From positions 1 through 45,880 of the forward strand of contig JAFZKP010000014.1 of the NCBI GenBank assembly GCA_017553625.1: a DNA stretch of 45,880 nucleotides, in the 5' to 3' direction. Positions 36,936 through 38,135 of the stretch are shown here, in pieces. The notes beneath the pieces were generated by a model. The model ran no database searches, had not been told where the DNA came from, and worked only from the letters and a program-made list of their open reading frames with translations. This DNA comes from Bacteroidales bacterium. GTDB taxonomy: Bacteria; Bacteroidota; Bacteroidia; Bacteroidales; F082. The translations under genes and the position numbers were made by a program. Within the stretch, counting starts at the first letter, position 1, and the number at the start of each line of letters is the position of its first letter.

Positions 36936-38135
36936 ATGAATATTTTAATATTAAGATCATCTTTCCAAACTGACGATTTTGTCAGGACAGAATATGCCGA
37001 ATTATTGGGTTTGTTGAAAGACAAATGCAATGCAGAAATAAAAATTATTGGTGATGAAAATGTAGAGACGTTTCAGGAAACGTCTCTACAATTGCAATCT
37101 GTTAATTTTGTTATGATTGCCACCGGTGGCACCGAGAATCTGTTTAAAAAATTGTTTGCTATGGAGACGTTTCGGGAAACGTCTCTACAGAAAACAATCA
37201 CCCTGATTGCCGATGGACGAAACAATTCATTGGCGGCATCGCTGGAAATTCTGTCGTATTTGTCGGAAAACGGCAAGGAGGGGAGGATTCTGCACGGAAC
37301 GAACGATGAAATTGTTAACGAAATTGTAGAGACGCGCTATGGCACGTCTCTACCTACAGATTTGTTCAACGGTACCCGCATAGGTGTTTTCGGTCAGCCT
37401 TCCGATTGGCTGATTGCATCAGGTGTGGATTACGAATACATCCGTGAACATTACGGAATTGAAACGGTTTTCATCGATTTGCAACGTCTGGTTGATGAAA
37501 TTGGCTCATCGGAAAAAACGGATATGTTGGCGGCAGACAAAACGTATACTGCCATCAAGAAAATCTGTCAGGAGGAACGTTTGGATGCTATGACGATTCG
37601 TTGTTTTGATATTGTAAAAGCATGTAACACAACGAGTTGTTTGGCTCTTGCAAAGCTCAACGACGAAGGCATCGTGGCTGGATGCGAGGGCGATATGCAG
37701 ACGTTGATGACGATGCTTCTTGCCAAGAAACTTTTAAACGAGCCTGCTTTCATGGCGAATCCTTCAATCTTGACCGACACGACCTCGATGTTTGCGCACT
37801 GCACCGTGCCATTGTCGATGTGCTATAAAACGTCGATGCGCACGCATTTCGAGTCGGGAATAGGAGTTGCGGTGCAAGGTGACATGCCGCTTGGTGACTA
37901 TACCATCATGAAATGGGGCGGAAGGAAGTTGGATAAATACTTTGTCACCGAAGCGAAGGCAATAAAAAATGAGTACAGCAACCATTTTTGCCGTACTCAA
38001 ATTACTTTTGATATAAATCTTAAGCCGTATCTCCTAAATCATCCGATTGGGAATCATCATGTCATCATCAAAGGACGGCATGCTGAGGAGATTAAGAGGT
38101 TTCTTACATCATGCCTGGCATCCCGCCGCCCATAG
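36936..38135 (+). CDS. L-fucose/L-arabinose isomerase-like protein with three in-frame palindromic inserts
   Basis: This 399-residue protein has the C-terminal fold of the fucose/arabinose isomerase family. The core reads [33 protein letters not shown], followed by [15 protein letters not shown] and [26 protein letters not shown]. The Glu, Asp and His positions expected at the metal site appear to be there, but the substrate is unknown. The N-terminal third contains three 30-bp palindromes (37061, 37160, 37325), translated as [20 protein letters not shown] and [10 protein letters not shown]. They preserve the frame. The gene starts two bases after the thioredoxin-like stop. It overlaps groL by 32 bases at its end, so its last residues are read opposite the GroEL Gly-Gly-Met tail. 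Confidence 0.83.
37061..37090. repeat. Palindromic element, copy 1 (in coding sequence)
   Basis: Perfect 14-base arms TGTAGAGACGTTTC and GAAACGTCTCTACA flank a two-base AG spacer. The element is exactly 30 bases (ten codons), begins at codon position 3 of the host gene, and encodes [10 protein letters not shown]. Confidence 0.95.
37160..37189. repeat. Palindromic element, copy 2 (in coding sequence)
   Basis: The right arm GAAACGTCTCTACA is identical to copy 1. The left arm keeps GAGACGTTTC but its outer four bases have drifted (TATG for TGTA). The spacer is GG and the length is again 30, in the same codon phase, encoding [10 protein letters not shown]. Confidence 0.93.
37325..37354. repeat. 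Palindromic element, copy 3 (in coding sequence)
   Basis: Outer arms TGTAGAGACG and CGTCTCTAC match copies 1 and 2, with a different centre, CGCTATGGCA. Length is 30 with the same codon phase, encoding [10 protein letters not shown]. The centre suggests a separate subfamily rather than a recent local copy of 1 or 2. Confidence 0.9.

Follow-up and report, generated by a model that had tools for sequence, protein, structure and literature searches.

Small dispersed repeats of 20–30 bp in cyanobacteria, reportedly described by Elhai in 2008, are said to be mobile. The described elements closest to those presented here are the REPs of subclass 2.4. According to the cited sections of Quentin et al. 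2018 (PMC6006769), these are double-foot REPs whose two ends are GT[AG]G and C[TC]AC. They occur in Cyanobacteria and Bacteroidetes, can lie within the transposase gene with its frame unbroken, and have the tabulated transposase motifs NH[IFV]H, WQ, and YIxNNP. In the sections cited, Di Nocera et al. 2013 (PMC3733652) describe GTAG- and CGTC-tagged REPs, some of them in coding genes, together with repeat-specific RAYT loci, and report different REPs at about the same recB site in two Xanthomonas species. RAYT-REP coevolution and the orthoswitch are treated in the cited parts of Nunvar et al. 2010, 2013 (PMC2817692, PMC3686654). The cited portion of PMC8266576 reports that TnpA-REP cleaves in vitro at a CT beside the REP and recombines; there, and in PMC3686654, the spread of REPs is presented as still poorly understood.

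Here, we analyze three palindromes that lie in frame within one isomerase-like gene, as a first-pass annotation of this DNA had claimed (Table 1). The gene lies in a window of 45,880 nt (the whole stretch of DNA analyzed) from a gut (rumen) Bacteroidales bacterium of the F082 group. The elements share the general architecture GTAGAGACG-N10-CGTCTCTAC, with the left end of the second degraded to ATG where the others have GTA, and all three are translated in the GTA-GAG-ACG frame. The annotation had given each a length of exactly 30 bases. They are palindromes as stated, but the conserved unit is 28 bp, and 30 is reached by adding one base per side. Similarly, the perfect 14-bp arms noted for the first copy hold once the outer T and A are counted (37061–37090). 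The center of element 3 is near the GCCATGGC family. The left GTAG foot missing from element 2 is also missing from the same-site copy in L021, and element 2 is possibly an old copy.

Table 1. Host gene and in-frame palindromes, with positions in the window
Feature	Position	Strand	Description
Isomerase-like host gene	36936..38135	+	ORF, 399 aa, fucose/sulfoquinovose-isomerase-like
Element 1	37062..37089	.	GTAGAGACG-TTTCAGGAAA-CGTCTCTAC, 28 bp, GTAG...CTAC, in frame
Element 2	37161..37188	.	ATGGAGACG-TTTCGGGAAA-CGTCTCTAC, in frame, left foot degraded
Element 3	37326..37353	.	GTAGAGACG-CGCTATGGCA-CGTCTCTAC, in frame, VETRYGTSL(P)

We call the host gene isomerase-like on the basis of a weak NCBIfam match, which scores 37.9 bits for sulfoquinovose isomerase where the cut-off is 700; a Pfam scan of the protein gave zero matches. 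The gene was matched in 31 of the 60 genomes searched, its own included (E ≤ 0.001), and most of the named orthologues were recovered in metagenome bins from the guts of ruminants and other herbivores. In a low-confidence structure model (mean pLDDT 56), which carries little weight, the space between predicted elements takes up insert 2 and the greater part of insert 3, while insert 1 lies between two strands but overlaps two short helices.

The palindromes belong to a dispersed family rather than to one tandem duplication, as had been proposed, and many other genes carry in-frame copies. The genome-wide arm search suggested by the first-pass annotation returned 114 GAGACG-N4-30-CGTCTC sites in the 2.47-Mb genome of origin and none for the reversed pattern. 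Fifty-six of these sites have exact GTAG and CTAC feet, on palindromes within the 20–40 bp range of REPs. Across the genus, GTAGAGACG-N8-14-CGTCTCTAC is present in all 36 genomes searched (own included; 1–69 sites per genome), again with zero hits for the reversed control. Thus, the palindromes are not a product of chance. The same pattern was found in 9 of the 25 genera of that draw. An even draw of the phylum, with 395 genomes from 171 genera, gave GTAGAGACG-N8-12-CGTCTCTAC in 58 genomes and 37 genera; centers vary among the matches listed, the arms being set by the search pattern.

These F082-group palindromes fit the double-foot REPs of RAYT group 4. They share with this class a RAYT flanked by cognate REPs and, with subclass 2.4 as presented in the cited sections of PMC6006769, GTAG-type double feet and in-frame REPs within the RAYT. 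In contrast, those sections describe no center exchange at orthologous in-frame sites of ordinary genes. The REPs of Di Nocera et al. also lie in genes, and recB is the one precedent for site sharing in the literature covered; however, the cited parts of PMC3733652 place Bacteroidetes under CGTC rather than GTAG, whereas the F082 elements have GTAG at both ends, and those parts contain no genus-wide exchange series at fixed sites. Rickettsia palindromic elements, which the first-pass annotation considered closest, likewise sit in frame in many genes. That affiliation gives way to double-foot GTAG REPs tied to a RAYT: RPE-4 and RPE-6 are CGTC-tagged repeats, RPE-1 is longer, and the cited parts of PMC3733652 describe no GTAG double foot for them, whereas both ends of our elements are GTAG/CTAC and CGTC lies inside the arm.

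Clustering of ORFs near palindromes revealed a divergent RAYT family. All four RAYTs tested matched the NCBIfam REP-associated tyrosine transposase model NF047646 (E 1.7e-11 to 2.2e-16; 44–60 bits against a cut-off of 80). The family has the motifs MPNHxH, WQ-RFHD, and Yxx-N. The Y-motif reads YIQNNV, YIENNV, YIEDNV, and YVEKNV in four aligned proteins, which differs from the YIxNNP given in the cited table of PMC6006769. Of 60 genomes of the genus, the one of origin among them, 40 have a RAYT match, which is nearly full length in 29. Several RAYT loci have one-footed palindromes, inverted around the gene, and palindromes are often found in frame within the RAYT's own linker (e.g., L312, L313, L317, L319, L322, L326, L329, and L330). 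Classified by center, the RAYT lineages include GCCATGGC and CAAAATTTTG. In the genome of origin (87% complete), we found no RAYT with the window's own centers: its two RAYTs carry GATGCGAATC (C34) and CGATGAATCG (C21, a split match with one stop), and RAYTs of the TTTC and GCCATGGC kinds turned up exclusively in other species. REP classes lacking their RAYT are reported in the cited part of PMC3686654.

IS200-like genes with the Y1_Tnp domain (PF01797) were considered as the transposase and rejected. They were matched in 43 of 60 genomes, yet none of the 50 fetched loci is directly flanked by palindromes (two have one about 1.2 kb away), and a 99% complete genome (G015) has palindromes with zero PF01797 matches. 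PF01797 rises barely above its cut-off in one of the four RAYTs tested, with the others below it or unmatched (E 4e-5, 1e-3, 7e-3, and none), probably because in-frame palindromes split these RAYTs. A separate PF01797 subfamily has inverted GTAGGGACG repeats on both sides (L124, L125, L142, L148, L149, and L150), apparently its own, separate REP system; L124 also holds a second block resembling AGGGACTGACGTCGACTGC.

RAYT lineages agree with center families, an association seen in several ways. We labeled 49 RAYT loci, the fetched part of the matches with partial matches L339–L341 left out. A GACG...CGTC palindrome lies within 500 bp or inside the ORF at 41 of them. Outside the ORF, 34 have one and 15 do not, compared with about two loci expected by density (114 cores per 2.47 Mb). 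The RAYT tree was made without the linker, through column removal, and labels were taken from outside the ORF; 9 of the 49 labels differ depending on whether the ORF interior is included. For the 34 labeled rows and their 14 labels, the tree requires 13 changes, which is the minimum (200 shuffles: mean 25.3, lowest 22). Counting the 15 unlabeled rows as a group gives 17 changes, compared with a minimum of 14 and a mean of 32.2 after shuffling; three groups, CGATnAATCG, TwGCGCGCwA, and yACGGCCGTr, then do not form single branches.

Core abundance follows the same pattern. CATTSAATG cores number 7, 7, 5, and 9 in the four known carriers of the corresponding RAYT and have a median of 0 in the other 56 genomes (p 5e-5), 14 of which are nonzero, with up to 9 cores. 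Those at the RAYT locus itself account for 3/7, 6/7, 4/5, and 1/9 of the carriers' copies; without them, p is 6e-4. Two genomes without a labeled RAYT of that kind, G022 and G029, have 7 and 9 cores, and such non-carriers may hold unseen RAYTs, only 49 loci having been labeled. CAARATYTTG cores also distinguish carriers from other genomes (p 2e-4). All five in G003 sit at the RAYT locus, while G082 has 36 copies, with just partial RAYT matches beside some. Cross-controls, in which one family's cores were counted in the other's carriers, pointed the same way with p 0.10 and 0.08, and cognate specificity by core abundance is therefore modest. Among palindromes of the isomerase gene, 70 of 75 are within 2 nt of a RAYT-locus center, 46 of them exactly, compared with 13% of random palindromes.

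At the three isomerase sites, centers differ between orthologues while flanks, boundaries, frame, and arms are largely kept. Our alignment comprises 65 sequences (64 named loci plus the window), in which the anchors failed to isolate 11 segments (four at site 1, one at site 2, and six at site 3). A palindrome passing the filter is present at site 1 in 33 of 61 readable sequences, at site 2 in 6 of 64, and at site 3 in 36 of 59; the 75 elements show 31 distinct inner sequences. At sites 1 and 3, with L260 omitted and with pairs that share species and hence are not independent, the center is identical in 3/3 comparisons at gene identity of at least 95%, in 73% of 11 at 90–95%, 21% of 56 at 85–90%, 14% of 449 at 80–85%, 16% of 240 at 75–80%, 9% of 123 at 70–75%, and 5% of 236 at 65–70%. 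Two random elements of species G002 and G003 agree in center in 9% of cases. Arms are 4.5–7% divergent across the bins from at least 95% down to 80–85%. The centers of the window and its close relative L212 (89.8%) show 9 differences in 10 positions at site 1, 7 at site 2, and 6 at site 3. Comparable jumps occur in L219/L231 (92.5%) and L216/L224 (91.3%), with 7 of 10 positions each, and in L217/L225 (89.0%), with all 10.

The same is seen between G002 and G003. For seven G003 elements, both flanks identified the corresponding place in G002. All five clearly alignable shared sites have different centers, with flanks of about 300 bp that are 80–99.7% identical, and in the exchange with the 99.7% flank only two of five center pairs changed. 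The remaining two placements fall in messy regions with different centers nearby. Different centers occupy old, shared sites. The first-pass annotation had expected homologues to lack exactly the ten-residue blocks, which the alignment does not support: many hold a palindrome, often with another center, and where a site looks empty the length difference is not 30. By eye, the net gain over shorter homologues is about 9–36 nt, with no fixed 30. No clean empty counterpart with flanks more than 80% identical was found for 178 elements; thus, we saw no insertion event from which to read a size or a target duplication, such as accompanies the terminal inverted repeats of MITEs.

In the orthoswitch, as set out in the cited parts of PMC3686654, RAYT-specific REP classes similarly succeed one another among related strains. 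That succession was inferred from REPs flanking orthologous RAYTs and from genome copy numbers, and old copies remain and decay, whereas here the dispersed coding copies themselves are exchanged. REPs and in-frame REPs are already known. Systematic, genus-wide exchange of centers at fixed in-frame coding sites is unreported in the literature we searched, in which subscription papers were thinly covered.

The palindromes form a RAYT-linked REP family with lineage-associated centers, shared arms, and in-frame persistence. We consider it likely that these double-foot REPs are spread by a group 4 RAYT (TnpA-REP subclass 2.4) and that the centers of coding copies are exchanged in place. The mobile unit would be the fully palindromic 28-bp element with GTAG at both ends. 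Several RAYT lineages would circulate in the genus, each associated with, and presumably acting on, palindromes of its own center, with GTAGAGACG arms common to most lineages. With two of the three frames open to them, elements of 28 bp would fit into loop-like protein regions, which may be why they persist in frame. A coding copy would be inherited for a time until an element from a different RAYT lineage overwrote its center in place, most simply because the shared arms make the old copy acceptable as a site, and the RAYTs themselves would carry out the exchange. Short-patch recombination of single-stranded DNA is a conceivable route for center exchange, for which the literature searched held no useful precedent. 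More tentatively, RAYT lineages may compete for docking sites shared by virtue of the common arms, cutting the old palindrome inside its arms and writing in their own center; this would be an in-place exchange of a cassette of about 10 bp within protein genes, RAYT genes included. If so, small patches of protein keep being redrawn without breaking reading frames.

The same sites could instead change by recurrent loss and re-insertion, in which a palindrome is removed precisely or deleted and the preferred spot is afterward filled by an element of another lineage, so that no existing copy is overwritten. Relatives of IS200/IS605 excise precisely, boundaries are identical at the three isomerase sites, and site 1 is short and apparently empty in L243 and L256–L258. 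However, among L216–L239, 21 of 22 readable loci have a palindrome at site 1 despite their differing centers, and empty sites are thus rare where exchange is common. Within the same flanks, the relatives L030 and L028 also hold different copies, a mutated GTGTGCACAC retained in L030 and a TGCCATGGCG in L028. Together with the absence of clean empty sites for 178 elements, these observations make such a history rather unlikely.

We find it improbable that centers evolve in place by polymerase template switching in the hairpin, which would copy a mutation from arm to arm and let the palindrome drift while staying perfect. Arms do change on both sides at once, in 11 cells (74 elements) compared with 0.84 expected under independence, although related species share some of these. 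Site 3 provides a series from GAGAGG/CCTCTC (L235) through the intermediate GAGAGT/CCTCTC (L260) to GAGAGT/ACTCTC (L246), and the small change beside the 99.7% flank also fits. The both-sided arm changes suggest that repair of the hairpin, or selection for pairing, contributes too. For the centers, drift of this kind is countered by their match to RAYT-locus centers in most isomerase elements, by the large jumps between close relatives, and by the T-G mismatch that several families retain, as expected for copies of a master.

Length and frame were surveyed in 1.35 Mb of stretches picked around matches in three species (G000, G002, and G003), with an element counted as in a gene when inside an ORF of at least 150 aa. 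Of the 28-bp elements, 48 of 109 lie in ORFs, compared with none of 10 elements of 27, 29, or 30 bp (Fisher p 0.0055); four matches of 24–25 bp, three of them in ORFs, were excluded as spurious ahead of this test. The same 28-bp elements are also common between genes. One of the three frames through the element contains TAG and is unreadable, a frame that the ORF rule by itself excludes, which leaves two. With one vote per gene and RAYTs excluded, 31 genes divide into 23 with the VET frame and 8 with CRD (binomial p 0.011). The reading phase is thus biased, not fixed. The first-pass annotation's same-phase insertion survives as a preference for VET, and its expectation of many genes carrying the blocks holds for in-frame copies, but not for a single phase. 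We infer that the decapeptides are tolerated neutral passengers rather than a selected motif. Selection of the hairpin as mRNA structure, or of the VET...TSL peptide in the protein, appears very improbable: inner pairing is kept in 328 of 370 cases, plus 21 G-T, and VET predominates, but the sense strand in genes has the C-A form about as often as the T-G form (8 and 6), which does not favor RNA pairing, the CRD frame is used too, and the same elements lie between genes.

Exchange of centers in place, the reading we prefer, gives coding sites a readable history, with the same arms, exchanged centers that are mostly assignable to a transposase lineage, and flanks whose divergence dates them. 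Such sites make the spread of REPs testable, including which step replaces the center and whether arm or center holds the specificity.

Enzymes such as EPSP synthase carry repeat-encoded loop peptides in many species of this one genus, which calls for caution in annotation, structure, and phylogeny work on these bacteria. Ten host proteins scanned with Pfam include EPSP synthase (two elements), AnmK (two), U32 peptidases, an AAA/UvrD-type helicase, a GH97 protein, a radical SAM protein, and a protein with a secretion sorting tail. Among EPSP synthases (18 aligned of 30 loci fetched), the VET frame accounts for every GTAGAGACG-type match, and several of these sit at shared loops.

Some sites differ in more than their centers. 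One U32 peptidase loop was compared in four species (loci L058 of G003, L072 of G015, L095 of G000, and L063 of G002). Two of them have GTAGAGACG palindromes there and the other two a GGACACAC-CGC-GTGTGTCC palindrome with different arms, and whole arm families may therefore be exchanged too. At a U32 peptidase site where G002 has a palindrome, G003 (L058) instead carries an in-frame run of TATCAAT repeats. By eye, site 3 of the isomerase locus L036 (G023) has a CTTTCAGGGGCGGTGTG/CACACCGCCCCTGAAAG palindrome with a GTGTGCACAC center and other arms in the same place. Finally, arms and fragments of a GATGAAAATC-centered palindrome recur about every 22 bp between two genes at L091:12691-13990 (G000:C11), and the neighboring genes, judged from their sequence, resemble efflux parts.
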